23,594 nt of DNA, from IMG/VR virus record IMGVR_UViG_3300021957_000311, positions 1 to 23,594 of that record; one strand, 5' to 3'. How positions within the stretch are numbered: position 1 is the stretch's first letter; each line of letters opens with the position of its first letter. This DNA is from a virus. The position numbers and the translations under genes are program-made. A model generated the notes under the pieces. It was not told where the DNA came from and ran no database searches. It saw only the letters and a program-made list of their open reading frames with translations. Shown here piece after piece: positions 7,909 to 22,511 of this stretch.

Positions 7909-10011
7909 TTATTCACTCACTATTGTTTTAATGATACCCCAGTCATCATCGAACTCAATTTCTTGGTATGGAATTGAGCCAAAGGTTGGTGGTGATATAG
8001 TCACGGTAGGCACTGTTCTATAACCTAGACCAGCATCGGTAACTGTAATAGACGAAACATCACCATTGGATGCAATTACAGCGGTTGCAGTAGCAGTAGT
8101 AGCAGTTGGTGCTGACACAGTTACTATTGCATCAGTATCATAGAATTTACCTATGCTATTTATTGACAGCTTTGTAATAGAGCCATTAACTAAAACAGGT
8201 GTTCCAACTACCGCGAAACTTGATGGTACATCATCTGGTGCATCTATAGTAATTATTGGTGCGCCAGACGTGTATCCAAGCCCACCATCTGTTACTGTTA
8301 TAGAAGTCACTTCACCATCTGTAGCTGTGATTGTAGCAGTTGGGAGTGTTTTATTGAAGTCAGCCGTAAAGATGTCGCCTGTCTGTGCAGATGTAGGAAC
8401 ACTGTATGGGTCACCATCAACACCAACTAATTGAGCTTGTGTTTCAAATGTAACGTTATCTATGTACCCAAGGAAACTACGATTAGCACCATCAAACACA
8501 GATTGGTTGCCTTGTGCATCGCCAACTTTGTATGTATGGTTAGGCAATGCGACATTACCTGCCCCACGAGTTTCGGTTGTACCCTTGGTTCCGTTTACGT
8601 TAATTCTAATGTCCGTACCAGAATGTTCTAGTTCAACATGATTCCACTGACCCATAGTTACAGTACCGCCACTAACAACACCCTGTGAGCCATATTGAAA
8701 TTTTATTTGTCCTGTTGTTTCCATAAAGATTTTTGTGAATGGAGCAAACAGAATAGAGAATGGATTTCCTGCTGGCATTGATGTTGGATAAATCCAAAAC
8801 TGAACCTTGTATCCTGTGTTGGAGCTAAAGAAGCCAGTGAATGTATGTAACAATGTAACATCATTTTCAGATGCGTGTGGTAAAGCATCGTCACCAAATT
8901 TAAACTCTTGTGCAACGTTTGGTGGTGGAGCAATACTAAACGTTGGGCTTGTGTAATAATTACCGCTACCTGTAACTGTTATTGCGTCGATACTTTCACC
9001 AGAAAGTGTGGCTGTTGCCGTTGCTGTTTGTGGTACTGCATCTGGAACACTAAAGCTGACTGTTGGGGGTGTAGAGAAGTAACCACCACCGTTTAGAATA
9101 TTGACACCACTCAAAGAACCATTTGCCATTGTAGTAGTAATAGATGCGTTGGCTGTATCTGGTGCGGCAATAGTAACTGTAGTATTAGCATTGTATCTCT
9201 CACCATCAACTAATACTTGAATATCATCTACCCTACCATTTACAAGAATGGCTTTTGCTGTAGCAGTCTGCCCTTCTGTAGTTATGGGTTCGCCGTTTGC
9301 GTTAAGTCCTGGTTTGATGTCTATGCCCTCTAAGAAAGGTGCATTGGTATCCGTACCATTGAACATATCAACATCTACAAACTTAATAATCTTCTTTTTC
9401 TTCTCAGGTCCGAAATACATACCTTTGAGAGTAAATGTCAAGGTGTATAGAATTGACTGTCTTTCTTCAAACGTACCTTCATACAAGTCCTCAGTTGTTA
9501 CACTGTTTAGGATAATGGGAATGTCGATAGGTTCGGCGTCTGGTATCATTTTAGCCGTTACAGTCCAATCTGGAGTAAAGAACGGTATGATTTGTTCCAT
9601 AATCTTAGTAGCGTCCTCAGCGTATTTTGTCATGATATAAAGTGAGAAGTCCAAGTTATAAGGAACGCCAGAATACAAGTAATCTCTTTGCGTCTGATCG
9701 TCATTGAATGTGGGCTTTAATACTTTACGTGTTGTAGCTATTTTTCTTGCAGGGTCATACGCAATGCTGTTAATCTCAAAAGACATTCTTGGAAGTGTCA
9801 TTGCTGGACGTGTGCTGTTGATAAGATCAGGGTCAGCCGCTACTCTTGCTAAAATCTTTTGGAAAGGCGCATAAGAAAGAGGAACAATCATCTCTTGTTG
9901 TTTAACGCCAGCAGCGTTCGCACGTTCAATCTTTAACTGATTAAACAGTGTACCGAATATCGCTACGTACTTTCTAGTAGTAGAGTTGTAAAAGTAATTT
10001 GCAATTGCCAT
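7909..10011 (-). CDS. 15: Tail terminator/sheath stabiliser (T4 gp15-like) with large beta-repeat and LamG-like insertion
   Basis: Residues 1 to about 235 match T4 gp15, the hexameric ring that caps the tail and binds the neck: Y-F-Y-N-S-T-T-R-K-Y (6-15), F-N-Q-L-K-I-E-R (23-30), L-P-R-M-S-F-E-I, Y-I-M-T-K-Y-x-x-D (125-133), I-M-E-Q-I-I-P-F-F-T-P-D (137-148) and L-T-F-T-L-K-G-M-Y (191-199). T4 gp15 is about 272 aa; this protein is 700. The extra part (about 240-677) contains three beta-repeats, a LamG/concanavalin-like region (366-530) and three more repeats. It then returns to a short acidic C-terminus, E-F-D-D-D-W-G-I-I-K (686-695), that resembles the natural end of the family. The added module was therefore inserted, not appended. 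The ATG at 10011 has AGGAT upstream. Confidence 0.92.
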   Translation of the reverse strand: MAIANYFYNSTTRKYVAIFGTLFNQLKIERANAAGVKQQEMIVPLSYAPFQKILARVAADPDLINSTRPAMTLPRMSFEINSIAYDPARKIATTRKVLKPTFNDDQTQRDYLYSGVPYNLDFSLYIMTKYAEDATKIMEQIIPFFTPDWTVTAKMIPDAEPIDIPIILNSVTTEDLYEGTFEERQSILYTLTFTLKGMYFGPEKKKKIIKFVDVDMFNGTDTNAPFLEGIDIKPGLNANGEPITTEGQTATAKAILVNGRVDDIQVLVDGERYNANTTVTIAAPDTANASITTTMANGSLSGVNILNGGGYFSTPPTVSFSVPDAVPQTATATATLSGESIDAITVTGSGNYYTSPTFSIAPPPNVAQEFKFGDDALPHASENDVTLLHTFTGFFSSNTGYKVQFWIYPTSMPAGNPFSILFAPFTKIFMETTGQIKFQYGSQGVVSGGTVTMGQWNHVELEHSGTDIRINVNGTKGTTETRGAGNVALPNHTYKVGDAQGNQSVFDGANRSFLGYIDNVTFETQAQLVGVDGDPYSVPTSAQTGDIFTADFNKTLPTATITATDGEVTSITVTDGGLGYTSGAPIITIDAPDDVPSSFAVVGTPVLVNGSITKLSINSIGKFYDTDAIVTVSAPTATTATATAVIASNGDVSSITVTDAGLGYRTVPTVTISPPTFGSIPYQEIEFDDDWGIIKTIVSE
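7984..8346 (-). repeat. Protein-level beta-repeat array B in gp15 (three units)
   Basis: Codons about 556-676 encode three further units of the type seen before the LamG-like region, for example I-T-V-T-D-G-G-L-G-Y-T-S (571-582) and I-T-V-T-D-A-G-L-G-Y-R-T (655-666). The two arrays flank the LamG-like domain almost symmetrically. Confidence 0.7.
8422..8916 (-). other. LamG/concanavalin-A-like domain inside gp15
   Basis: Codons about 366-530 have the layout of LamG-like jelly rolls: a leading F-K-F-G-D-D strand, T-G-Y-K-V-Q-F-W-I-Y-P (399-409), Q-W-N-H-V-E-L-E (455-462), D-I-R-I-N-V-N-G (467-474) and a closing G-Y-I-D-N-V-T-F (515-522). Such domains often bind glycans. The assignment is from pattern only. 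Confidence 0.65.
8926..9270 (-). repeat. Protein-level beta-repeat array A in gp15 (three units)
   Basis: Codons about 248-362 encode three units of about 35-40 residues. The shared pattern is alternating A-T-A, then G-x-[VI]-x-x-I-x-V, then a G-x-x-Y turn, then P-T-[VF]-x-[IF]-x-x-P. Examples are G-G-G-Y-F-S-T-P-P-T-V-S-F (308-320) and G-S-G-N-Y-Y-T-S-P-T-F-S-I (348-360). They are read as short beta units of a rod or stalk. Confidence 0.7.
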
Positions 10012-10014
10012 TGT

Positions 10015-10695
10015 TTATAAATCCTGTATGCTAATATTTTCACTGAATGGGTCTAGCTCAGAGAAGTCTAGTATATCATCAGCTTGTTGTTCAAACGCCA
10101 AGTTATCAGCAAGTGGATCAACGGCAGTCAATGAAGTAAGTGTGTTTACTGTGTTCGCTGTAGTATCAATATCATCAAAGAAATGATCGATCTCATAATA
10201 CCCTGTATCAAATTGCTCACCAGAATATTCCATAAGTTCGCAACGCATATCATAAACTTGTAATGCACCACTTTGATAGAACACACTTTCATGTTCTACA
10301 TGTTGAATTTTGTAAAGCTTATTGTTTAGAGGTAGGAATATAACTTCCCCAGCAATAGGTCTTATTCTCTTGTCGTTTTCTCTTGTAACAAATCTTTCGA
10401 AAGTTCTAATAGCAACAGTAAATGTAATTGAGTCTCTGATCTGCAAACCAAACTTACTCAAGAAGTCGCCTTCGCCTTCAAACCCATCTACGTTTTTAAT
10501 ATAAACTTCAAAATCATAATACTGATCGAATGTAGGAATATCGTCCTCATTCAATATAGGGTCTATATTAGCGTTTGCTCTCGTAACGAATTTTACGTCA
10601 ATTCCATAGATTTGAATAGACTCAATAACCAAGTCATCAATCAAGTTCTGTTCGTAACTATTCGTAGTGTTTCTGAAAAATGCGTTCGTTGCCAT
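10015..10695 (-). CDS. 14: Neck protein / head completion protein (T4 gp14-like)
   Basis: At 226 aa (T4 gp14 is 256 aa) it forms part of the neck joining filled heads to tails. Matching segments are E-S-I-Q-I-Y-G-I-D-V (25-34), Y-I-K-N-V-D-G-F-E-G (66-75), F-L-S-K-F-G-L-Q-I-R-D (78-88) and a later G-E-V-I-F-L-P-L-N-N-K-L-Y-K-I. The C-terminus is acidic and ends in D-P-F-S-E-N-I-S. It starts three bases after the gp13 stop, with GGATAAGAG before the ATG, and is followed by gp15, giving the exact T4 13-14-15 order. Confidence 0.93.
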   Translation of the reverse strand: MATNAFFRNTTNSYEQNLIDDLVIESIQIYGIDVKFVTRANANIDPILNEDDIPTFDQYYDFEVYIKNVDGFEGEGDFLSKFGLQIRDSITFTVAIRTFERFVTRENDKRIRPIAGEVIFLPLNNKLYKIQHVEHESVFYQSGALQVYDMRCELMEYSGEQFDTGYYEIDHFFDDIDTTANTVNTLTSLTAVDPLADNLAFEQQADDILDFSELDPFSENISIQDL

Positions 10696-10698
10696 CTC

Positions 10699-11442
10699 TT
10701 ATCCGATATAGTTATATGTTAGCGGTTGGTATGAACGAATTGCTTCTTCTTCCATACGTTCACGATCAGCCCTAGCCTCTGCTAATATTTGTTCTCCATT
10801 AAACTGCACACCGCCAACTAATTGCATCTGTGTAAACTTAGTTAGGTTTAAACCCCATTGCTCACGCACAAGGACAGCCGCATAGTTCTGTAACCAACGA
10901 TCAGACCAAACTTCTGCGTATTCATCAGGATTAACAACGTCGTATGCTTCAATAATAATATAATTGCCTACAACCCAAGATTTATTATCTGTATCAATGT
11001 GCAATTTATTTACGTGTTTGTTATAACGTATCATCTGCTTGCCAACTAACATTTCTTGCATGAACTCAATGTGTTGCATAGTCATGTAATAGTTTTGCAT
11101 ACTGTAGCTAGTCATGTCTTGAATGTTATTTAAAACAAATTGATAATTTACATTAAACATACCAGTACCAGTCGAGATACTAGTGTCCATGTCAAATATT
11201 TTAGATATACCTAACAACCCCTGTGGTAATGGAATATAGCCATTTTCTTTATCTGCTTCGGTGATCTGATGTTTTAGGTAAACCATTTGACTGCCGTTGT
11301 AGTGATAATCTCTCCAAAAAGAAACTGCTTCATCTACACGATCTTCTACTTGCTCATCTGCAACATTGATGTCAATTACAGGTGCGCCTATTTTTCTTAG
11401 GATGTAGTCTTTAAAGTCTTCTTTTGATGTTGGTTGTGCCAT
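10699..11442 (-). CDS. 13: Neck protein / head completion protein (T4 gp13-like)
   Basis: At 247 aa it is shorter than T4 gp13 (309 aa) but of a size I associate with marine T4-like phages. It acts with gp14 to complete the neck. Visible family features are L-R-K-I-G-A-P-V (15-22), the acidic helix E-D-R-V-D-E-A-V-S-F-W-R-D-Y-H (32-46), I-P-L-P-Q-G-L-L-G-I-S-K-I-F (70-83), and the C-terminal W-G-L-N-L-T-K-F with L-V-G-G-V-Q-F-N-G. Its ATG overlaps the upstream stop as TAATG, which implies translational coupling. Confidence 0.92.
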   Translation of the reverse strand: MAQPTSKEDFKDYILRKIGAPVIDINVADEQVEDRVDEAVSFWRDYHYNGSQMVYLKHQITEADKENGYIPLPQGLLGISKIFDMDTSISTGTGMFNVNYQFVLNNIQDMTSYSMQNYYMTMQHIEFMQEMLVGKQMIRYNKHVNKLHIDTDNKSWVVGNYIIIEAYDVVNPDEYAEVWSDRWLQNYAAVLVREQWGLNLTKFTQMQLVGGVQFNGEQILAEARADRERMEEEAIRSYQPLTYNYIG

Positions 11443-11774
11443 TATGCTAACTCACCTTTAATGATTACTTTAATATATCCAGAGTTTGGGAATGTTTCGA
11501 TCTGACCGTTATTGTAAGTAACTTGGAATTCTGCGTTATGGATACCTGTGTTAGAGGTATCACCTGTTTGCCAAGTGTAGGCAACAATACCCTTTGCTGA
11601 GTTAACGATTGTCCCTGTACCAAGGCTAACAACATTAACGCCAGCATCTGTTGACATATTGAATGCAATAGACGCCGCTTCCGTCATAGGTTTAGCACGT
11701 CCAGACGAACTTGTTAAGACTACTTCTAGGGATGGTGCAGTATCGTTTTGCTTGATGTAGAAGTTATCCGACAT
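11442..11774 (-). CDS. BppU-N-terminal-like virion protein (110 aa)
   Basis: The layout resembles the BppU N-terminal (DUF2479-type) beta domain found in baseplate and minor tail proteins: I-K-Q-N-D-T-A-P-S-L-E at the start (7-17), a middle G-T-I-V-N-S-A-K-G-I-V-A-Y-T-W-Q (54-69), and Y-N-N-G-Q-I-E-T-F-P (about 88-97) with a closing I-K-V-I-I-K-G. In other phages this fold anchors receptor-binding parts. Here it stands alone next to gp13, so an accessory neck, collar or tail role is inferred. GGAGA lies before the ATG at 11774, with a late-promoter-like GATAAATA 21 bases further up. Confidence 0.75.
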   Translation of the reverse strand: MSDNFYIKQNDTAPSLEVVLTSSSGRAKPMTEAASIAFNMSTDAGVNVVSLGTGTIVNSAKGIVAYTWQTGDTSNTGIHNAEFQVTYNNGQIETFPNSGYIKVIIKGELA

Positions 11775-11794
11775 GTGTTTTCTCCGTTTACTTT

Positions 11795-11802
11795 TATTTA
11801 TC
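11795..11802 (-). promoter_or_regulatory. Possible late promoter, one mismatch (GATAAATA)
   Basis: The minus strand reads GATAAATA in the gap between the 193-aa gene (stop at 11813) and the BppU-like gene (start 11774). It is one base off TATAAATA and suitably placed to drive the 110-aa gene and the neck/terminase genes below it. Confidence 0.45.
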
Positions 11803-11812
11803 TAAAAAGTTA

Positions 11813-12394
11813 TTATCTGATTATAACAAAATTTTCGCCATTATTGCGTATCTTCACACCATTTGGCTGTTGTTTTATAGTTACTTGGTTGTTTTGTGTA
11901 TCTTGTAGTCTAATACCGTTTGTTAAGTTTGGTCTACTTTTGTTTAATAACGTATAATTAATCACTTTGGACTGTAGAGCATATGAAAAAGCACCTGTAG
12001 TTTGACCCAATGAGAACTGAGCCATAGTACCAGAGAACTCAATTGGAAATATGTTATCAAAACTACCTACGATAGGGTTAAAGGCTGTAGCAGAGCCAGT
12101 AAATTCTATAGAAAGGTTAGCAGATTCGCCATATCCTTGACGTCCAAACTCAATACGACCACTTTGGTTTAAATCAAATTCTATTGTGCCGTTGAATTCA
12201 CCATATATAGTTGGCGTTTCAACCCCAGCAGTAAGAAAAAAGTCTACAGTGTTGTTAGCGTTAGCATGAACAGGAGTAAACACGTCAGATGTAAATGATA
12301 AATCGAACGTGCTGTTAGCTTGACCGACAAGAACTGAAAAGCCCCCACCGAAAAAGGTATAGTCTATACTCCCTGTAAATGTGCCGTTAGACAT
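11813..12394 (-). CDS. Beta-rich virion-type protein with internal repeats (193 aa), family not recognised
   Basis: I do not recognise this family. The protein has low Lys/Arg content in its first 145 residues and consists of about seven short beta units spaced 20-24 residues apart. Their centres lie near residues 6, 30, 50, 71, 94, 116 and 136, each with a [T/S/A]-[F/V/I/L]-[D/E/S]-[F/L]-type core. The last 40 residues change character (Asn/Gln/Arg-rich) and look like a separate C-terminal piece. AAGGAC lies before the ATG at 12394. It sits among small beta proteins beside the neck genes, so a decoration, collar or fibre-attachment role is a reasonable guess only. Confidence 0.75.
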   Translation of the reverse strand: MSNGTFTGSIDYTFFGGGFSVLVGQANSTFDLSFTSDVFTPVHANANNTVDFFLTAGVETPTIYGEFNGTIEFDLNQSGRIEFGRQGYGESANLSIEFTGSATAFNPIVGSFDNIFPIEFSGTMAQFSLGQTTGAFSYALQSKVINYTLLNKSRPNLTNGIRLQDTQNNQVTIKQQPNGVKIRNNGENFVIIR

Positions 12395-12406
12395 TTAGAA
12401 CGTCCT

Positions 12407-12814
12407 TTATGCACCACCAGCAGTAATTGTAAATGTAGTAATAGTGATTTGTTGACCAATTGCGATGTTTGTGTTGTCGAGTTGCATATCTCCACCAGCA
12501 CCAGATGCTGAAATAGTACCTTGCAAGTGACATACGCTACCATCAGCTTGATGTACCCTAAAGTAACCAGCAGTACCAGAAGCATCCGCTGAAAGGTCTT
12601 GCCAATTACCTGATAACTGCATTACGCCATTATTTGGTGTTGAAAGCCAATCTGCTGGTAAAATCATAGTTGCTACGATAACACCTGTATTTGCACTTGG
12701 ACACTCAGTTGGCGCTGATCCTGTAGCAATCGTAAGAATTGGATTTGCGCCAATTGCTGTTTCGATTGCTTGGAGTGTGCCATTTCTTGTTTGGGGGGAT
12801 AACTGAAAAGCCAT
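12407..12814 (-). CDS. Small beta-rich phage structural-type protein (135 aa)
   Basis: Complete 135-aa gene with a strong AAAGGAGAAAA ribosome site, about 30 bases downstream of an exact late promoter. It starts M-A-F-Q-L-S-P-Q-T-R-N and ends in alternating Thr/Ile strands. This composition is typical of small jelly-roll-like phage head or tail accessory proteins (R-N-G-x-L-x-A-I-E-x-A-I-G near the N-terminus). Strong promoter plus strong ribosome site suggest abundance. No specific family is claimed. Confidence 0.78.
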   Translation of the reverse strand: MAFQLSPQTRNGTLQAIETAIGANPILTIATGSAPTECPSANTGVIVATMILPADWLSTPNNGVMQLSGNWQDLSADASGTAGYFRVHQADGSVCHLQGTISASGAGGDMQLDNTNIAIGQQITITTFTITAGGA

Positions 12815-12928: not shown

Positions 12929-13702
12929 CTATCTTCTTTCAATATCATCTTCTGATAATTCATTACCCATCCATACTTCAATAACCTTAACAGGAACATT
13001 ACCAACGTTAGTTGCATGATGCCAAGTCTTAGAAGGTATGTCTATACTATCACCAGTTTTATATACCTTAGACGTACTATAACCATTAGAGAACTCTAAA
13101 TCCATTTTAAGCTTACCATCAACGATATGCCAATGCTCAGAACGTATAAAGTGTCTTTGATCAGATAATGATTTATTAACGTCAATAGACAACTCTTTTA
13201 CTTTCCAATGACCATTCTGATCTAAGTCTCTATATTTACCCCATAGTCTTTGCGTAGTTGGTTTATCCCATTCTTTTAGAATCCATGATGAACTGTTCTT
13301 TTTATCTTCACCACCAACTCCAAAGACAAATGATATATTACATTCATCACGTAATTCTTTAGCAAACTCAACTTCTGGTGTTGTTCCTTTTTTTCTATCT
13401 CCACCATTTGCAAAGATAATCTCAGAGTTTCTAGGAGCTTGTTTAGCTACATATCGAATAGCATCACAGGCTGTATCATCTGAGTCATCAAAAGTAAATA
13501 CATGACCTACACACCCAAGTTCTTTGATAATAGACATACGTTCTTCGACAGACATAAAAGGTTTTCCCTTTTTGCGTGTCAGCCAATCATCACTATTAAG
13601 ACCAACAAATAGGATAGAACCCATTTCCTTAGCCGCTTTAAAATATGCAATATGTCCTGAGTGTAGGGGATCAAAACCCCCAGTTACGATCACTGGTTTC
13701 AT
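12929..13702 (-). CDS. Cytidylyltransferase-like nucleotidyltransferase fused to a mannose-6-phosphate-isomerase-type cupin
   Basis: Residues 1-145 form a nucleotidyltransferase of the RfaE/TagD type: G-G-F-D-P-L-H-S-G-H-I (8-18) with the catalytic H-x-G-H (14-17), and an N-S-S-S-W stretch (136-140) where the family has its S/T-rich ATP loop. Residues 152-247 are a cupin like the C-terminal part of type II phosphomannose isomerases, with R-L-W-G-K-Y, H-F-I-R-S-E-H-W (184-191), D-I-P-S-K-T-W-H-H (221-229). Likely role: activating a sugar or alcohol phosphate for surface glycan work. The frame extends to 13729, but the ATG at 13702 is chosen: GAAGG lies 7 bases upstream and it overlaps the preceding stop as ATGA. 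Confidence 0.88.
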   Translation of the reverse strand: MKPVIVTGGFDPLHSGHIAYFKAAKEMGSILFVGLNSDDWLTRKKGKPFMSVEERMSIIKELGCVGHVFTFDDSDDTACDAIRYVAKQAPRNSEIIFANGGDRKKGTTPEVEFAKELRDECNISFVFGVGGEDKKNSSSWILKEWDKPTTQRLWGKYRDLDQNGHWKVKELSIDVNKSLSDQRHFIRSEHWHIVDGKLKMDLEFSNGYSTSKVYKTGDSIDIPSKTWHHATNVGNVPVKVIEVWMGNELSEDDIERR

Positions 13703-14934
13703 TTTCTTTCCTTCATCATATAATCCCAAATAAAGTTCTTACTTTTATTAGACTTCATATTGTTATTTATGTAACCAGGATGTACCCACCAATCCTCATA
13801 AGAATTGTTATTATCTATAGAGACATCAGGAACAAACAACTTATATCCAATATTTTTTAGATACTCTCTTGATTTGTCTTTGATCTCAGAACCCCACCAA
13901 CATTCATTGTGTTGAAACTGTATAATTGAGAACTCATACTTTTGGAATGGAATTTCACCCAAAACTGATAGAGATGCTTGATCTGCATTAATTCTTAGGA
14001 ATTCTGTATGTTGCTCAATACAATTCTGTTTAAATAACTTTTTATAATCTATAGTTGACGCATCTTCCAGAATAATTTTTGTATTACGTTCCCTACTGAA
14101 CATAGCACACATTCTTTCGTCTCTATCTATAGACAAACCTCTCCAACCAAATTCTTTTTCTAGTAAGTATGTGTTATTAAATAGCTTAGGGTGTCCCGAC
14201 CCAATTTCTACAAAGCTACCGCCCTTCTTACCTTTAAGTAGTGATAGGACAAACATATCTTGGAAGTGGCGAGAATAGTTCTTCTCCACATTCTCAAGAC
14301 CATCAAATTTGTGTTTGTATTTCTCAATTTCTTCTTTGCGATATACTAACGTACTAGGATAGCCAATGTGACTTAACAAATCAGTAACTTCTGTATCCAT
14401 TTCAGATGTCATGTTAAGTTTATTTTTGTGCTTTAGATTGAATAGTAAATTCTTTGAATCGTCTCTGCCATCTGTTTTCCATTTAGACATTGCATAGATA
14501 TATTCAAGACCTACTTGGCCAGGATAGTTTAGTTCTTCACTGTGTTCTACTAATTCTAAGCCTAGCCCTATTTTAGAGTACATTAACGAGTCACGCCAAT
14601 TACTAATCTCTTTGGAATGTTTAGCCGCAAAATAATATGCTTCTGGTCTATCTGGTAGTATAGTCATAGCCATCTTGTAAAGACCTATAACCGTTTGACC
14701 ACGAGCCTCTGATCTGTCGAAAATCTGTCCACCCAATACCATACAGTTATATTGTAATTTCTTTTCTTCCCACGTTTCACCTTCGCAAAAATCAGCCGCC
14801 CTAAGATACCAACCAAAAGCCGCCGCACCCTGTTTCAGTGAATCATACTCACGAGCAAGAGCGTACATCTTAAATGGATTAGAATAGTCCATGACAACAT
14901 CATTCAAAACTTTCATATTCTTAAATCTCATCAT
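13699..14934 (-). CDS. TPR-like N-terminus plus FkbM-type SAM methyltransferase domain
   Basis: 411 aa from the ATG at 14934, chosen because AGAAGG lies 5 bases upstream; the frame opens at a GTG at 14940. Residues about 15-190 are helical, TPR-like, rich in Y/A/L pairs such as A-F-G-W-Y-L-R-A-A and P-E-A-Y-Y-F-A-A-K. From about residue 219 there is a methyltransferase core with the SAM-binding loop V-E-I-G-S-G-H-P (242-249) and an acidic strand end S-I-D-R-D-E (268-273), as in FkbM-type enzymes, which methylate sugars or small molecules. A single chain with TPR scaffold and catalytic domain fits a glycan-modifying enzyme. It overlaps the next gene by 4 bases and the previous one by 14. Substrate unknown. 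Confidence 0.82.
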   Translation of the reverse strand: MMRFKNMKVLNDVVMDYSNPFKMYALAREYDSLKQGAAAFGWYLRAADFCEGETWEEKKLQYNCMVLGGQIFDRSEARGQTVIGLYKMAMTILPDRPEAYYFAAKHSKEISNWRDSLMYSKIGLGLELVEHSEELNYPGQVGLEYIYAMSKWKTDGRDDSKNLLFNLKHKNKLNMTSEMDTEVTDLLSHIGYPSTLVYRKEEIEKYKHKFDGLENVEKNYSRHFQDMFVLSLLKGKKGGSFVEIGSGHPKLFNNTYLLEKEFGWRGLSIDRDERMCAMFSRERNTKIILEDASTIDYKKLFKQNCIEQHTEFLRINADQASLSVLGEIPFQKYEFSIIQFQHNECWWGSEIKDKSREYLKNIGYKLFVPDVSIDNNNSYEDWWVHPGYINNNMKSNKSKNFIWDYMMKERK

Positions 14935-16228: not shown

Positions 16229-16558
16229 TTACCAGTCTGGTACGAACGTATTCATTGTATTTATCTCAACCTTCTTAGCCAAAACTTTGTTGATAACATC
16301 CATTTCGCTTTCAGTCATAGATTCTTCTATCCAAGATACAACATCTGCTTTTGTAACATCATCTAGTTCGATGTAATCAGCCGCCGATGTAGATGAAAGA
16401 TCAAGTAATGTTTTGCCAACATAAGTAGCTTTTTTGTTGGCATCATTAGTAGCAATCTTTCTCCACTTGATAGAAATGATTGCATCTGCTAACACATCAC
16501 CATCGCTATTTGTTTGGTCAAGGGTTCCAAGCTTTAGTATTTCCCATGTGTAGTTCAT
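16229..16558 (-). CDS. Small phage protein, paralogue of the next upstream gene (DUF7936-like, 109 aa)
   Basis: It starts M-N-Y-T-W-E-I-L-K-L-G-T and shares the layout of the 127-aa neighbour: a beta N-terminus, D-A-I-I-S-I-K-W-R, a degraded G-x-x-G segment, then D-V-T-K-A-D-V-V-S-W-I-E (67-78) and a helical C-terminus. I associate this pattern with DUF7936-type proteins of marine phages (recollection, not a search). Function unknown. It ends in V-P-D-W, 35 bases before the GH130-like gene. Confidence 0.75.
   Translation of the reverse strand: MNYTWEILKLGTLDQTNSDGDVLADAIISIKWRKIATNDANKKATYVGKTLLDLSSTSAADYIELDDVTKADVVSWIEESMTESEMDVINKVLAKKVEINTMNTFVPDW
16258..16265 (-). promoter_or_regulatory. 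Possible late promoter, one mismatch (GATAAATA), upstream of the GH130-like gene
   Basis: GATAAATA on the minus strand lies inside the 3' end of the 109-aa gene, 65 bases before the ATG at 16193. Its location inside coding sequence weakens the case. Confidence 0.3.
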
Positions 16559-16573
16559 AATCGTTACTTTCTA

Positions 16574-16957
16574 TTATTCATCACCTGATGGTGCTGGTGT
16601 TGCTTCACCCCAAGGTAGGTCTGCGCCAGTTTTCTCTACAGCAATATCTTTATCAATTTCTTTTTGAATTTGCATATCGATGTGAGCTTTGTATCCTGGG
16701 TCTGAATCAATTACGTTTGTAATCCAACCAATTACTGTTGCTTCTTCTAGGTCTTCAAAAGCAGTAAACGAACCCGCTGGTACGTTAGCCGCACTGAATG
16801 GTGTAGCACCTGTAAATGAACCTTCGTTGCCTTCTTCATCAGTACCTACGATGTCCCAATAAGTTTGAACCACTGCGTTTGTTAAAGTTTCACCAGCAGC
16901 GTTAACTTCATCTTTTACCTTTAGGTTTCTGACAGTATATGTATATGTAAATGCCAT
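16574..16957 (-). CDS. Small phage protein (DUF7936-like, 127 aa)
   Basis: It starts M-A-F-T-Y-T-Y-T-V. It then has V-V-Q-T-Y-W-D-I-V-G-T-D (29-40), E-E-G-N-E-G-S-F-T-G-A-T-P-F (41-54), F-E-D-L-E-E-A-T-V-I-G-W-I (67-79) and I-D-M-Q-I-Q-K-E-I-D (93-102). This is the canonical form of a small protein family that I recall as widespread in marine phages; the 109-aa neighbour is a diverged copy. The C-terminus is a Pro/Glu tail. GGAGAAA precedes the ATG, with two late-promoter motifs upstream. Function unknown; a small beta virion protein is possible. Confidence 0.8.
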   Translation of the reverse strand: MAFTYTYTVRNLKVKDEVNAAGETLTNAVVQTYWDIVGTDEEGNEGSFTGATPFSAANVPAGSFTAFEDLEEATVIGWITNVIDSDPGYKAHIDMQIQKEIDKDIAVEKTGADLPWGEATPAPSGDE

Positions 16958-17705: not shown

Positions 17706-18158
17706 ATGACATTTATCGACTTTGAAAACTTTCTGCTAACAGAAGAGTGTTTTGATAACCATGATGTTTCTTATATAGACGAAGATGGTAATCAACACTA
17801 CATAGAACAAACTGACTTCATCTCATATGTTGGGACTGTAGCTAGGTTGTTGTCTGAGAGTAGAACTATGAAAGTCGAGCAAATAGAGACTTTACTGTTT
17901 GTTAAAGGAACTGTTCATGCCTTTTACAATCAAAAGAATGGCGCATCATTTGATGTTCATACAGACCCTGTAGATGTTTTTATAGAATGTCTTGCTGGTA
18001 AGAAGATCATGGAAGTTGATGGCAAAGAGGTTGTGTTAGAAAAAGGCGATACGGTTTTAATACCATCAGGAACACCGCATAGAGCGTTAAATTATGAAAA
18101 GGCATTGATGTTATCACATGGCATTCACGACACAGAAACACTTAATCGTATACGTTAA
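17706..18158 (+). CDS. Compact JmjC/cupin_4-type Fe(II) oxygenase-like protein (150 aa)
   Basis: Residues 80-140 carry the core of JmjC/ribosomal-oxygenase cupins: S-F-D-V-H-T-D-P-V-D-V-F (81-92) with H85-x-D87, then L-A-G-K-K-I-M-E-V, then G-D-T-V-L-I-P-S-G-T-P-H-R-A (114-127) with distal H125. H85, D87 and H125 make a plausible Fe(II) facial triad. Known cupin_4 enzymes hydroxylate protein or RNA-associated residues using 2-oxoglutarate, but they are much larger; here only the catalytic barrel and a short N-terminal region remain. It is the first gene of the radical-SAM operon and overlaps the next by 41 bases, so a role in the same pathway is inferred. A non-catalytic cupin is the alternative. 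Confidence 0.78.
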   Translation: MTFIDFENFLLTEECFDNHDVSYIDEDGNQHYIEQTDFISYVGTVARLLSESRTMKVEQIETLLFVKGTVHAFYNQKNGASFDVHTDPVDVFIECLAGKKIMEVDGKEVVLEKGDTVLIPSGTPHRALNYEKALMLSHGIHDTETLNRIR

Positions 18159-19146
18159 GACCACCGAAACTTGTAATCTGAACTGCGCCCATTGTTTTAC
18201 TTCTGGTATTAACGGACGTAAGATTTACTTTGATGCGGATAAGACAGCGAAGTGGTGTAACGAATTAGACGATGGGTCAAATCAAATACACTTTGAGTAT
18301 CATGGTGGTGAGCCTCTGCTTGCACCCATGAAAGACCTGTGGCATTTCTACAATGTTACGAAAGAACATTGGGGTGATAAATGTACACATGGTATCACAA
18401 CAAATCTTACGTATAAACTGACTGACGAACGTGTTGAGTTTCTTAAGGTGTTAGATTCTGGTTCTATCGGTACATCATGGGACCCCAACATTCGTTTTGC
18501 AAACGAAAAGCAAAGACAGCTTTGGGAAGACAACGTAAAGCGTTTGGTTTCTGAAGGTTGTAACATCCAATGTTTTATTTCCGTATCTAAAGATGTTGTT
18601 GCAATGGAACCCCTTGAGATTGCTGATTATATGCATTCACTTGGAGTGGGTTCTATTAACTATGAACGATTGACCCACGATGGCAATGCAACAATTAATA
18701 CAGATATTTTTCCACATAACTCTGAGCTTGATGCTTTTTGGATGAAGATGCATGAGACGACTAAAGATCACCCTATACATAATAACTTTCTCAATTCAGT
18801 TTATGATAAGTTTAGTAAAGGTCAATTCTTTAATGGTACGTTCTGTAGGGATTGTGAGCAAAAGATACACACTATCAATGCTGATGGTACTGTAGCAGGT
18901 TGTCCTAATACTGCACCAACACAATGGTATGGTGACATCAGTATGCCAGCAAAGACAGTGAGAGAAAGCCCTAAGCGCATGGAAGTGATTGCTTGTGAGA
19001 CACATGAGCGTGACCCACGTTGTTACGACTGTCCTGTGTTTATCTATTGCCATTCTGATTGTCATCAGTTACAATGGATGGAAGACGTATGCCCAGCGCC
19101 TAAAACATTGATGTTGAAATTAGCGGGAGACAAAGGATGGATTTGA
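18118..19146 (+). CDS. Radical-SAM enzyme with full SPASM domain (rSAM-1, 342 aa)
   Basis: The radical-SAM cluster motif is C19-N-L-N-C23-A-H-C26 and the SAM-binding G-G-E is at 63-65. The C-terminal SPASM domain is complete: C246 to C262 across I-N-A-D-G-T-V-A-G-C, then C302-x2-C305-x5-C311-x3-C315 and C325, enough ligands for two auxiliary 4Fe-4S clusters. SPASM enzymes such as AlbA and anaerobic sulfatase-maturating enzymes act mostly on peptides or proteins. The core motif begins 19 residues from the N-terminus, so no separate peptide-recognition (RRE) domain is present. The ATG at 18118 has a weak ribosome site and lies inside the previous gene, suggesting coupling. Confidence 0.93.
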   Translation: MAFTTQKHLIVYVKTTETCNLNCAHCFTSGINGRKIYFDADKTAKWCNELDDGSNQIHFEYHGGEPLLAPMKDLWHFYNVTKEHWGDKCTHGITTNLTYKLTDERVEFLKVLDSGSIGTSWDPNIRFANEKQRQLWEDNVKRLVSEGCNIQCFISVSKDVVAMEPLEIADYMHSLGVGSINYERLTHDGNATINTDIFPHNSELDAFWMKMHETTKDHPIHNNFLNSVYDKFSKGQFFNGTFCRDCEQKIHTINADGTVAGCPNTAPTQWYGDISMPAKTVRESPKRMEVIACETHERDPRCYDCPVFIYCHSDCHQLQWMEDVCPAPKTLMLKLAGDKGWI

Positions 19147-20174
19147 TTATTAAGCCAACCGAGGCTTGTAACTTTAAATGTACGTTTTGTTCTTCGACTG
19201 ACATCGACCCCAATGAAGTTGGGCTGTTGGACTTGGAATATATCTATCGTTTCTTGAAAAGGTATCCTGATACTAACACAATCATTGTTAATGGTGGTGA
19301 CCCACTTATGGTCAAGCCAGAGTATTACCAAGAACTGATAGACCATCTTGATGAACATGATTACCCAGCATATATTAGCTTTACATCTAACCTATGGCCT
19401 TTCTTAATGCGCCCAGAGAAGTGGCTACCCATCTTCAAGAACGAAAGATTTGGTTGTGCAACATCATTTCAATATGGTGGTGGTAGACTAAAAGGTGACT
19501 ATTCAGAGTTTACAGAAAAAGACTTTTGGATGGTGTCTGATGCTATGTTAAAACATACTGGCGAACGTCCACCCTTTATTGCGGTTATTACAGAAGAGAA
19601 TGAACATCTTGCTATCAAGAACGTTGAGCTTGCCAAAGAGATGGACGTGGAGTGTAAGTTAAACTATGCTATGGCGTCTGGCGTACAAGGTAGCACGTAT
19701 CAGTTAAGTAAGATTTACGAAACATACCTTGAAATATATGATCGTGGTTTAGCTGAATATGAGTTCAACACTAAACAAATGATGAAACGTCTCCAAGGCT
19801 TTTCAACTACTTGCCCTCAAAATAGGCATTGCGATGGTGGCATTCGTGCATTCAACCCAGGTGGTGACTATTACTCTTGTGGCTCTTTTGCTGATGATAT
19901 GGATTATCCTATTGATTTTGAGACTGAGATGAATGGTGAGATGCAGACACCTCTTCAAAATGATCCTAACATACAGACTATGAAAATGGCTTGTTACACT
20001 TGCCCTATGTTTGAAATATGTAATGGCTGTAAAAAGACAGTACGTGATATGAAACGTGAAGGGACAACTGAAGCACATTGCAAACAAATGAAATCACTCG
20101 CTCCAAGAATACTTGCTACGAATGGAATGAGTCCAGATATGGTGACGCCTTATGTTGATGAATCTATCAATTAA
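19137..20174 (+). CDS. Radical-SAM enzyme with variant SPASM domain (rSAM-2, 345 aa)
   Basis: The motif C11-N-F-K-C15-T-F-C18 lies near the extreme N-terminus. The G-G-E position reads G-G-D (53-55). The C-terminal auxiliary Cys set is C226/C232 with C248, then C286-x2-C289-x5-C295-x2-C298 and C315; the x2 spacing between C295 and C298 differs from the usual x3. Y-Y-S-C-G-S-F (245-251) fills the place of the usual G-x4-C. The start overlaps rSAM-1 by 10 bases, with GGGAGACAAAGG directly before the ATG, a convincing ribosome site. It probably works on the same or a linked substrate as its neighbours. Confidence 0.92.
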   Translation: MDLIIKPTEACNFKCTFCSSTDIDPNEVGLLDLEYIYRFLKRYPDTNTIIVNGGDPLMVKPEYYQELIDHLDEHDYPAYISFTSNLWPFLMRPEKWLPIFKNERFGCATSFQYGGGRLKGDYSEFTEKDFWMVSDAMLKHTGERPPFIAVITEENEHLAIKNVELAKEMDVECKLNYAMASGVQGSTYQLSKIYETYLEIYDRGLAEYEFNTKQMMKRLQGFSTTCPQNRHCDGGIRAFNPGGDYYSCGSFADDMDYPIDFETEMNGEMQTPLQNDPNIQTMKMACYTCPMFEICNGCKKTVRDMKREGTTEAHCKQMKSLAPRILATNGMSPDMVTPYVDESIN

Positions 20175-21066
20175 TCCGACATACTATTGCAACTTTGCCT
20201 GTGACTTTTGCTACTTGACAACAGCACAATTAAATGATAGACATAAGATAACACCGCTATGGTTAGATCATTCGTTACGTCAAATAAACGATCCTATTGG
20301 ACATGTTGATCTGTATGGTGGTGAGATTGGGTTATTGACGCCAGAATACTTCTATGAACTAAAAAGTATTATAAGAAGATATTACGATGGTGATATAAAC
20401 ATCAATACAAACCTTTCTGCGTTTCCAGACTTCTTTCGAGATGATGATGTGACGTTATCTGTATCGTATGACTTTCATGCAAGAGAGAAAGAACAGCACG
20501 TTCTGAATAACATGATGAACGCAAATAAAGATTTATCTGTTCTAATATTAGCTAGTCCTAAAGTTTTAGAGATGGATGTTGAATTTATGATCTTTACGTT
20601 GAATATGATTTCTAATGTAAAGTCAGTTGAGATTAAACCTTATTCAATTAACCAAGCTAATGCTCACCCTGTCACGCATAAAGACTTTGAAGACTTCGTT
20701 ATTAAGTTTGATGAAGCAAAGACAGAAAAGAAGTTTAACTTTCAAAATATGGATAACATATGGCGAAGTATAGATAAAGAATATGATGCGTTTAGTAATG
20801 ATCACGTATATATTACACCTAAGGGTAAATATGGTGTGCTTGAGTTCGATAAATACGATAAGGAATACTTCAAAGAATACGATACATACTATGAATACAA
20901 GAAGTGGGCTAGGGAAGAACCTGAGAACAATCTAAGCGAAATATGTAAGACGTGTAAATATTATGGTAATTGTTTGACAGAACATTATCGGTATGTAAAG
21001 GATTTGACTAATAGTTGTAATGGATACAAAGGATTGTTAGAATATTATGAAAGAATGGAAAGCTAG
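20152..21066 (+). CDS. Radical-SAM enzyme with reduced (twitch-like) auxiliary motif (rSAM-3, 304 aa)
   Basis: The cluster motif is C13-N-F-A-C17-D-F-C20 and G-G-E is at 56-58. The C-terminus has only C265-x2-C268-x5-C274 and C289, enough for one auxiliary cluster. The first SPASM Cys pair is absent: the region that would hold it, I-T-P-K-G-K-Y-G-V-L (221-230), keeps the beta hairpin but has no Cys. It is shorter than rSAM-1 and rSAM-2. The start at 20152 overlaps rSAM-2 by 23 bases; a second in-frame ATG at 20158 is possible. A related but distinct reaction on the pathway is inferred. Confidence 0.9.
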   Translation: MLMNLSINPTYYCNFACDFCYLTTAQLNDRHKITPLWLDHSLRQINDPIGHVDLYGGEIGLLTPEYFYELKSIIRRYYDGDININTNLSAFPDFFRDDDVTLSVSYDFHAREKEQHVLNNMMNANKDLSVLILASPKVLEMDVEFMIFTLNMISNVKSVEIKPYSINQANAHPVTHKDFEDFVIKFDEAKTEKKFNFQNMDNIWRSIDKEYDAFSNDHVYITPKGKYGVLEFDKYDKEYFKEYDTYYEYKKWAREEPENNLSEICKTCKYYGNCLTEHYRYVKDLTNSCNGYKGLLEYYERMES

Positions 21067-21445
21067 ACAAAGCGCATATCATTTGACAGCATCTTTATTC
21101 AAAGATGATCTGACTGATGTGGAGATTAATTGGCAACCTGACCTTACGGTTGAGTTTGCTCTAACACACTTCAGAGAGTATGTAGACGAATGGATTTATC
21201 CAGCCAAATCATATGTGGTTGCGATATGTTATGCCCATTGGCTTAGTAAAGACTTCAATGAAGACTTCTTTGATGCACTAAATGATCCAGAATTGCTATT
21301 TAATAATGACCCCCATTTTGTTCCATATTGGCAAGACAAAGAAACTTATGATGAAATACTCGCCCAACTAGACTTTAACGAGAAGCTTGGTATGGTTCCT
21401 GACATATACGAATACTATAAAGAGGAAATGTTATTTGGACTTTAA
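21047..21445 (+). CDS. Orphan 132-aa acidic helical protein within the radical-SAM operon
   Basis: Not recognised. It is acidic and mostly helical, rich in aromatic residues (for example E-Y-V-D-E-W-I-Y-P-A and V-V-A-I-C-Y-A-H-W-L), with no signal peptide, membrane segment or Cys-rich motif. It overlaps rSAM-3 by 20 bases and rSAM-4 by 11. AAAGGA lies some 13 bases upstream of the ATG, so translation is probably coupled. A separate recognition or chaperone subunit is possible because the radical-SAM proteins lack N-terminal recognition domains. It could equally be the substrate or an unrelated passenger. Confidence 0.8.
   Translation: MKEWKARQSAYHLTASLFKDDLTDVEINWQPDLTVEFALTHFREYVDEWIYPAKSYVVAICYAHWLSKDFNEDFFDALNDPELLFNNDPHFVPYWQDKETYDEILAQLDFNEKLGMVPDIYEYYKEEMLFGL
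21421..21426 (+). promoter_or_regulatory. Ribosome-binding site deciding the TTG start of rSAM-4
   Basis: AGAGGA lies 8 bases before the TTG at 21435, within the end of the 132-aa gene. No in-frame ATG lies between the start of the open frame and the cluster motif. Confidence 0.65.
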
Positions 21446-22511
21446 TATAACAAAACAGTTATTAGAAACTAAGCGACCCGACATCGCTGAGATTGAGTTG
21501 ACGTTGTTTGAAAACTGTCACCTTAACTGTTCTTTTTGTCATCACGACAAGAAGTCAACTGTAGGCTTGTCAAGAGAAGAAATATTCTCCAAGCTTGATT
21601 TAGTTGAACAACATGTTATTAAAATGAAAGGCAGAGTAGACATTATCCAAATCAATATGGTTGGTGGTGAACTATTCCAAGATCGTATATCAGAGTGGGC
21701 TTACCCAGTTTATTATGACTTTCTAGTTGCAATTAAGAAAATATTCGATGAACACGAGCAAAAGATTAAAGTTGTTTGGGTTACTTCTTTTCAGTTTAGC
21801 AAGAGAGATAGGGTAGAAAAACTATTAGACGATCTAAACGCTGTAGACATTCCTTCTTATATCATATGCTCTTATGACTTTGACGGAAGACCCACAAAAG
21901 GACCTTACGCAAAAAACATAGAATATTTCGCTGATTATATCGTATCAATTAATATGGTTGCTACTACTTTGTCAATCAAAAAGTTTATGGCTGATGATGA
22001 CGAATACTTCCACTATCTATACGAGAAGTTTGATGAGTTTTACTTTGATGATTATATACCAGACCGTGGGTTTGATTATATGATACCATCAGACAGTGAG
22101 TACCTAGAGTTCTTGAAGTTTGTATATCATAACTACCCCGACATCAATCCTATAAAAGACTTGATATATAACGAGAGCAACCACATGCACTGCTTGGCTC
22201 TTAATAAGGTTACAATCTTTCCTGATAACTCTACATCAAACTGTAGATGGGATAGATACGATCAACGTGACTTCAACACTAAATATGAACGCAAAGACAA
22301 TGCAGGTATGATGCAAGCCTATATGGATGAAAATGGTTGTTTGTCTTGTAAGTGGTGGAACAAATGTGGATTTAGATGTTACACTCAATGGGATTGGAAA
22401 AATAGAGAACGTGATCTACCAGATTGCATTATGAGAATGTGGTTCAATTATATGGACAAGACTGGTCAGAATTTAATTACAGGATTTGATTATGATAAAG
22501 AAAAAACTTAA
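21435..22511 (+). CDS. Radical-SAM enzyme with full SPASM domain, TTG start (rSAM-4, 358 aa)
   Basis: The start is the TTG at 21435 because AGAGGA lies 8 bases upstream, the overlap with the previous gene is 11 bases, and the N-terminus (M-D-F-N-I-T-K-Q) then has normal length. The frame opens at another TTG at 21387. Motifs: C28-H-L-N-C32-S-F-C35, M-V-G-G-E-L (75-80), C253 to C270 across I-F-P-D-N-S-T-S-N-C, then C302-x2-C305-x5-C311-x3-C315 and C331, a complete SPASM set. It has an acidic, aromatic-rich insert around 185-225. The weak start codon may keep its level below that of the other enzymes. Confidence 0.9.
   Translation: MDFNITKQLLETKRPDIAEIELTLFENCHLNCSFCHHDKKSTVGLSREEIFSKLDLVEQHVIKMKGRVDIIQINMVGGELFQDRISEWAYPVYYDFLVAIKKIFDEHEQKIKVVWVTSFQFSKRDRVEKLLDDLNAVDIPSYIICSYDFDGRPTKGPYAKNIEYFADYIVSINMVATTLSIKKFMADDDEYFHYLYEKFDEFYFDDYIPDRGFDYMIPSDSEYLEFLKFVYHNYPDINPIKDLIYNESNHMHCLALNKVTIFPDNSTSNCRWDRYDQRDFNTKYERKDNAGMMQAYMDENGCLSCKWWNKCGFRCYTQWDWKNRERDLPDCIMRMWFNYMDKTGQNLITGFDYDKEKT

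Follow-up and report, generated by a model that had tools for sequence, protein, structure and literature searches.

The neck genes and the extended gp15

The window, by which we mean the whole stretch of 23,594 bases analysed in the present study (virus record IMGVR_UViG_3300021957_000311), is a fragment of a T4-like myovirus whose genes include those for the portal, tube, sheath, terminase, gp15, gp14 and gp13. The gene order gp13-gp14-gp15-gp16-gp17 is found in it, with sheath, tube and portal close by; its G+C content is 36-39% and no tRNA gene was found in it. The closest named portal proteins (~53% identical) belong to Sinorhizobium phages of the phiM12 group, which also hold the best insert-free match to the gp15 core (46% identity). 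The neck genes and the parts of gp15 are as follows.

7909..10011, minus strand: gp15 tail terminator / tail sheath stabiliser, 700 aa, with insert
9340..10011, minus strand: conserved gp15 core, residues 1-224 (PF16724 T4-gp15_tss over residues 6-224, E 2.6e-64; Foldseek to T4 gp15)
9154..9270, minus strand: beta repeat 1, residues 248-286 (repeat profile E 7.5e-14)
9034..9153, minus strand: beta repeat 2, residues 287-326 (repeat profile E 7.6e-13)
8914..9033, minus strand: beta repeat 3, residues 327-366 (repeat profile E 2e-11)
8347..8913, minus strand: LG (laminin-G / pentraxin-fold) domain, residues 367-555 (Laminin_G_3 at 398-522; VIA-align)
8230..8346, minus strand: beta repeat 4, residues 556-594 (repeat profile E 5e-13)
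8101..8217, minus strand: beta repeat 5, residues 599-637 (repeat profile E 4e-10)
7981..8100, minus strand: beta repeat 6, residues 638-677 (repeat profile E 1.8e-16)
7912..7977, minus strand: conserved acidic C-terminal arm, residues 679-700 (aligned with the gp15 C-termini of T4, phiM12, HTVC008M and S-SSM7)
10015..10695, minus strand: gp14 neck protein, 226 aa, short arm (PF11649, E 1.5e-31)
10699..11442, minus strand: gp13 neck protein, 247 aa (phrog_211 head-tail adaptor Ad2, E 1.1e-40)
11442-12814, minus strand: three small genes (110, 193 and 135 aa) upstream of gp13

The small proteins encoded upstream, already remarked on in a first-pass annotation made from the sequence alone, are real, with matches in 63, 60 and 53 of the best 80 related loci, many of which are incomplete contigs; the last of them (135 aa) is phrog_3758, a virion structural protein. 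Beside the neck genes, 12929-13729 (minus strand) encodes a cytidylyltransferase-like domain fused to a mannose-6-phosphate isomerase C-terminal / cupin domain. A tandem paralogue pair of DUF7936 lies at 16229-16558 and 16574-16957 (minus strand), and at 17706-22511 (plus strand) a cupin ORF precedes several ORFs that match radical-SAM (E 1e-5 to 1e-8 for three of them and 0.0015 for one, all but one below the Pfam cut-off), an unusual cluster for a phage.

The extra module of gp15 spans residues 248-677 and consists of three ~39-aa beta repeats, the LG domain and three more repeats. The first-pass annotation had placed an insert of this symmetrical build at 7984-9270, which corresponds to residues 248-676 of the minus-strand ORF 7909-10011, between a conserved domain and a short acidic C-terminus, and on each of these points it was correct. 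The core is matched over residues 6-224, by Foldseek also to T4 gp15 (4huh, 4hud and 9mkb, E 2e-8 to 1e-7), and the acidic motif lies at ~679-700. Laminin_G_3 scored 33.8 bits against a cut-off of 27.6 (residues 398-522) and Laminin_G_2 26.7 bits against 22.9, with Laminin_G_1 below its cut-off in gp15 (19.6 against 24). Profiles built from single units scored the other five repeats at 12-40 bits, compared with 5.8-9.0 for the best of 1000 shuffles, the one exception being the weakest match of the unit-6 profile (6.3 versus 6.9), and the profile of the N-terminal half (repeats 1-3) also matched the C-terminal half in all 11 long contigs. The window motif EFDDDWG aligns with DPEDWDG of T4 and DPDDDWA of phiM12, whose 268-aa gp15 aligns on either side of the insert, its C-terminal end reading IPYLQIDPDDDW against SIPYQEIEFDDDW in the window. 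The insert between core and acidic arm is genuine, and its layout is three repeats, LG, three repeats. The ~270 aa that the annotation took as normal for the family holds for T4, HTVC008M and phiM12 (268-272 aa) but not across 19 named phages, where gp15 as annotated ranges from 193 to 532 aa.

An AlphaFold model of the single chain, based on 48 aligned sequences, contains three repeats, an LG-like sandwich and three repeats, with pLDDT mostly ~85-96 in the insert; pLDDT in the core was ~40-79 and pTM 0.48, values at which the model gives no position for the cassette. Among the 50 VIA-align matches listed, model residues ~363-555 resembled PTX3 (pentraxin), laminin LG, neurexin, agrin and others (Z 14.8-17.8), coverage falling mainly on residues 366-555, and a jelly-roll LG fold is predicted for the centre of the insert. 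Compared with a library of predicted viral proteins, the model matched best two chains of 532 and 762 residues, the lengths of Mosig gp15 and S-SSM7 gp14, an identification by length only. Residues 243-368 (three repeats) predicted alone gave pLDDT 76 and pTM 0.35, with a single match in the PDB (E 9.5), which is no demonstration of a new fold; this poor prediction may mean that the two halves pack together, or may reflect a thin alignment.

Conservation and descent of the insert

Relatives were taken as the best 80 of 337 obtained by tblastn in viral contigs. Among these, all 63 complete gp15 genes encode 695-707 aa, representing 49 distinct sequences besides the window, with identities to the window of 59-88% in the core and 26-77% in LG. 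All 11 contigs examined that measure 37-83 kb have their LG and repeat matches solely inside gp15. In a core tree (FastTree, 175 sequences) the 41 LG-bearing sequences group with eight truncated ones in a single clade (support 0.885). It lies nested within gp15s whose tails are short, apart from L265, which has another long tail, and close relatives lacking the insert exist. Variation of the insert among relatives, a possibility raised in the first-pass annotation, was not seen in the lineage: presence, length and order are constant, and the comparison shows a single acquisition, since fixed.

Median dN/dS over 71 pairs was 0.068 in the core, 0.15 in repeats 1-3, 0.113 in LG and 0.188 in repeats 4-6 (3-5 pairs with dS zero or not finite were left out in two regions), values that are rough because median dS is high (0.6-0.9). 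Judged from these ratios, the insert is under purifying selection. A hypervariable LG engaged in an arms race was considered and is unsupported: purifying selection acts on the domain itself, and among close relatives the repeats change at least as fast, which does not favour such a receptor binder and keeps fibre docking and mechanical roles among the candidates. The annotation had also allowed for an assembly error joining two genes. Nothing was found in favour of an assembly or gene-fusion artefact, and it is refuted by the single open frame kept across many independent contigs and in every complete relative, at near-constant length, within one clade and under purifying selection; we regard it as vanishingly improbable.

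A related cassette on gp14

The insert alone was searched by tblastn against 50,697 phage records, of which 19 matched. The match ran through LG in only four, namely gp14 of S-SSM7 (two records), S-SSM6a and Sf-FS3; twelve of the other 15 stop within the part covering repeats 1-3, and those of P-RSM6 (two records) and Marine virus AG-345-O18 extend ~40 residues into LG. The gp14 cassette of S-SSM7 type was found at tblastn E 2e-19 and by the LG profile at E ~1e-31 to 1e-26. In S-SSM7 gp14 (762 aa) LG has two repeats before it and four after it (hhalign E 2e-9 to 5e-4, against 0.99 for a control stretch), and whole-cassette hhalign (E 2e-38, 368 columns) makes gp15 ~299-674 collinear with gp14 ~221-614. 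By these profile comparisons the gp14 cassette of S-SSM7-type cyanophages is shown to be homologous to that in gp15, a relationship beyond what the first-pass annotation had proposed.

Among 186 distinct gp14/gp15 pairs, LG was present in gp15 in 46, in gp14 in 61, in neither in 79 and in both in none, an exclusivity that is descriptive rather than a count of independent events, as the pairs come from few lineages and were fetched by their own queries. The set derives from 233 pairs after removal of 47 duplicates, and leaves out 27 gp15 cut at the 3' end and 12 lacking a complete gp14. Where LG is in gp15 the gp14 tail measures 51-57 aa, and where LG is in gp14 the gp15 tail measures 112-119 aa. 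The gp14 of the window (226 aa) is without the cassette, giving no match to the LG or repeat profiles. In a tree of LG domains the split between gp14 and gp15 is compatible with one divergence; midpoint rooting sets two gp15 LGs (L064 and L068) beside gp14, by which repeated exchange is not shown.

Repeats without LG occur in gp14 of S-T4 (four), Bellamy (four), Sf-CH3 (two), ACG-2014i (two) and ACG-2014f (one), and two repeats occur in gp15 of locus L268; other arm extensions were found at L252, L265 and L266. Repeat numbers are even (2, 4, 6) in most other phages. The gp15 of Vibrio phage V09 (434 aa; L282:3043-4347) is extended at its C-terminus by short tandem repeats of DWN type, recognised by eye; in gp15 of a metagenomic relative (L265:5953-7260) the extension follows the acidic motif and matches DUF285 weakly (E 5.8e-4, below cut-off); and gp14 at L252:4213-5217 has an extra stretch of ~100 aa, cupredoxin-like by eye, with nothing convincing in Pfam. 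No LG or repeat profile match was obtained in gp14 or gp15, both ≤300 aa, for eight of the 19 named phages (T4, S-CAM1, RHph_I1_18, GG32, ACP17, K382, HTVC008M and phiM12).

Probable position and function at the neck, and known systems

In T4, the C-terminal region of gp14 (178-256) is reported to contact gp15 203-245 extensively, in the available portion of the structural account (PMC12270204). Counted on the sequence, the T4 gp15 acidic motif lies at ~243-249, which puts the insertion point where this contact stretch ends. The available portions of the XM1 and Milano studies (PMC10457771, PMC10491603) describe a terminator C-terminal arm that augments the sheath beta sheet, and with the arm running to the sheath the gp15 insert most likely leaves the ring outward. 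As proposed in the first-pass annotation, the cassette is most likely outside the neck, judging from these partly consulted T4, XM1 and Milano structures and from volume. Six such cassettes would surround the neck only if the gp15 of the window is a hexamer like that of T4. Since the gp14 and gp15 insertion sites are both in the arms that meet, either carrier should put the cassette at about the same place outside the neck.

The annotation had named the opposite outcome, an insert present throughout the lineage and buried in the tail lumen; the first part was found and the second is contradicted by size. Six inserts of 44.5 kDa need ~323,000 cubic angstrom, about five times the ~63,000 of a lumen of 40 x 50 angstrom, where 40 is the tube bore from the accessible part of PMC10457771 and 50 is assumed. 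The gp15 rings do encircle the channel, which speaks for a role within the lumen or in gating DNA, but in XM1 and Milano the flanking arm reaches out to the sheath, as far as those two accounts were available (PMC10457771, PMC10491603), and we strongly disfavour this location as very improbable.

The reading we prefer is that the C-terminal arm of gp15 took in a display cassette of repeats, LG and repeats. Six cassettes of a hexamer would ring the exterior of the neck at the gp14/gp15/sheath junction, and the conserved acidic C-terminus beyond the insert would keep the ordinary arm contact. The repeats would act as a stalk or frame carrying LG outward, and LG would bind a ligand, most likely a host-surface glycan or glycoprotein, and so help to hold the particle near the cell. 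This explanation, taken whole, we give about an even chance. Glycans or matrix proteins are common ligands of LG and pentraxin folds; LG folds also take part in contacts between proteins and in scaffolds. We take adhesion to be the likeliest function because of the former property and because other phages bear neck spikes or collars resembling glycan binders.

A second candidate is that the LG cassette is a docking platform that holds long tail fibres or neck fibres, as the fibritin whiskers of T4 do, although we do not put gp15 forward as a fibritin. The neck region is the same as that of the T4 collar, and purifying rather than diversifying selection fits a ligand within the virion. Fibritin_C (PF07921) matched T4 alone among 12 records and none of six lineage contigs, but these six are fragments and the domain was likewise not found in S-SSM7, Mosig, HTVC008M, phiM12 and V09, so its absence is not tied to the cassette; we consider docking unlikely. 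Alternatively, the cassette could act as a collar taken into the protein, clamping the top disc of the sheath together with gp14 and gp15. The fixed length and order of the insert agree with such mechanical reinforcement, as do its location in an arm that meets gp14 in T4 and the sheath in XM1 and Milano, and the external collar described at the same place in the part of the Milano study consulted (PMC10491603). A clamp, however, needs no LG domain, close relatives do without the insert, and LG-free repeats are found at the same arms in other phages, which leaves this role rather improbable.

On the preferred, adhesive reading, these results suggest that a group of marine T4-like phages and some cyanophages use the neck as a mount for adhesive parts. 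We further propose, tentatively and at less than even chance, that the arms of gp14 and gp15, where they meet, offer a common attachment point for interchangeable adhesive modules, that one LG cassette moved between ring proteins with its spatial place kept, and that the neck gives marine myoviruses a second organ of adhesion, independent of the tail tip. If the position of the cassette is the same, a role of the neck of marine phages in adhesion or in docking fibres becomes open to experiment, for which S-SSM7 and Sf-FS3, isolated phages of named Synechococcus strains, offer natural comparison pairs. The gp15 cassette is a real, conserved, lectin-type neck appendage of single acquisition, whose function we infer. 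No description of an LG cassette in gp14 or gp15 was found in literature titles or abstract openings.

Among known systems, T4 gp15 (PF16724; 4HUD, 4HUH, 9MKB) shares the core domain, the gp13-gp14-gp15-gp16-gp17 order and the acidic C-terminal motif, but has 272 aa and no insert. The Synechococcus phages S-SSM7 and Sf-FS3 have collinear repeats, LG and repeats in a neck-ring C-terminal arm, likewise preceding a conserved acidic end; there the carrier is gp14 (762 and 763 aa), the layout is 2+LG+4 rather than 3+LG+3 with two of the six repeats weak, and gp15 has a different domain of ~80 aa between core and acidic motif. In gp15 of Pelagibacter phage Mosig (532 aa) a sandwich-like stretch is flanked by single repeats (cassette hhalign E 2.4e-13), but the extension comes after the acidic motif and the LG-like part taken by itself falls short of significance (E 0.045; probability 3-12%). 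Laminin G3 domains are associated with tail fibres and other virion components in jumbo phages, according to the portion available of PMC7824862. The collar protein gp13 of Agrobacterium phage Milano similarly forms an external neck layer, with a D domain that its authors, in the part of their account consulted, liken to glycan-interacting proteins (PMC10491603), a likeness by description; it differs in being a separate gene and forming 15-fold rings. The collar spike gp40 of Vibrio phage XM1 is an adhesive-type appendage on the stopper and terminator rings but a separate trimeric spike protein, as described in the available part of PMC10457771. Neck appendages are known as separate proteins, whether whiskers, spikes or collars, whereas the one described here forms part of an essential ring protein.
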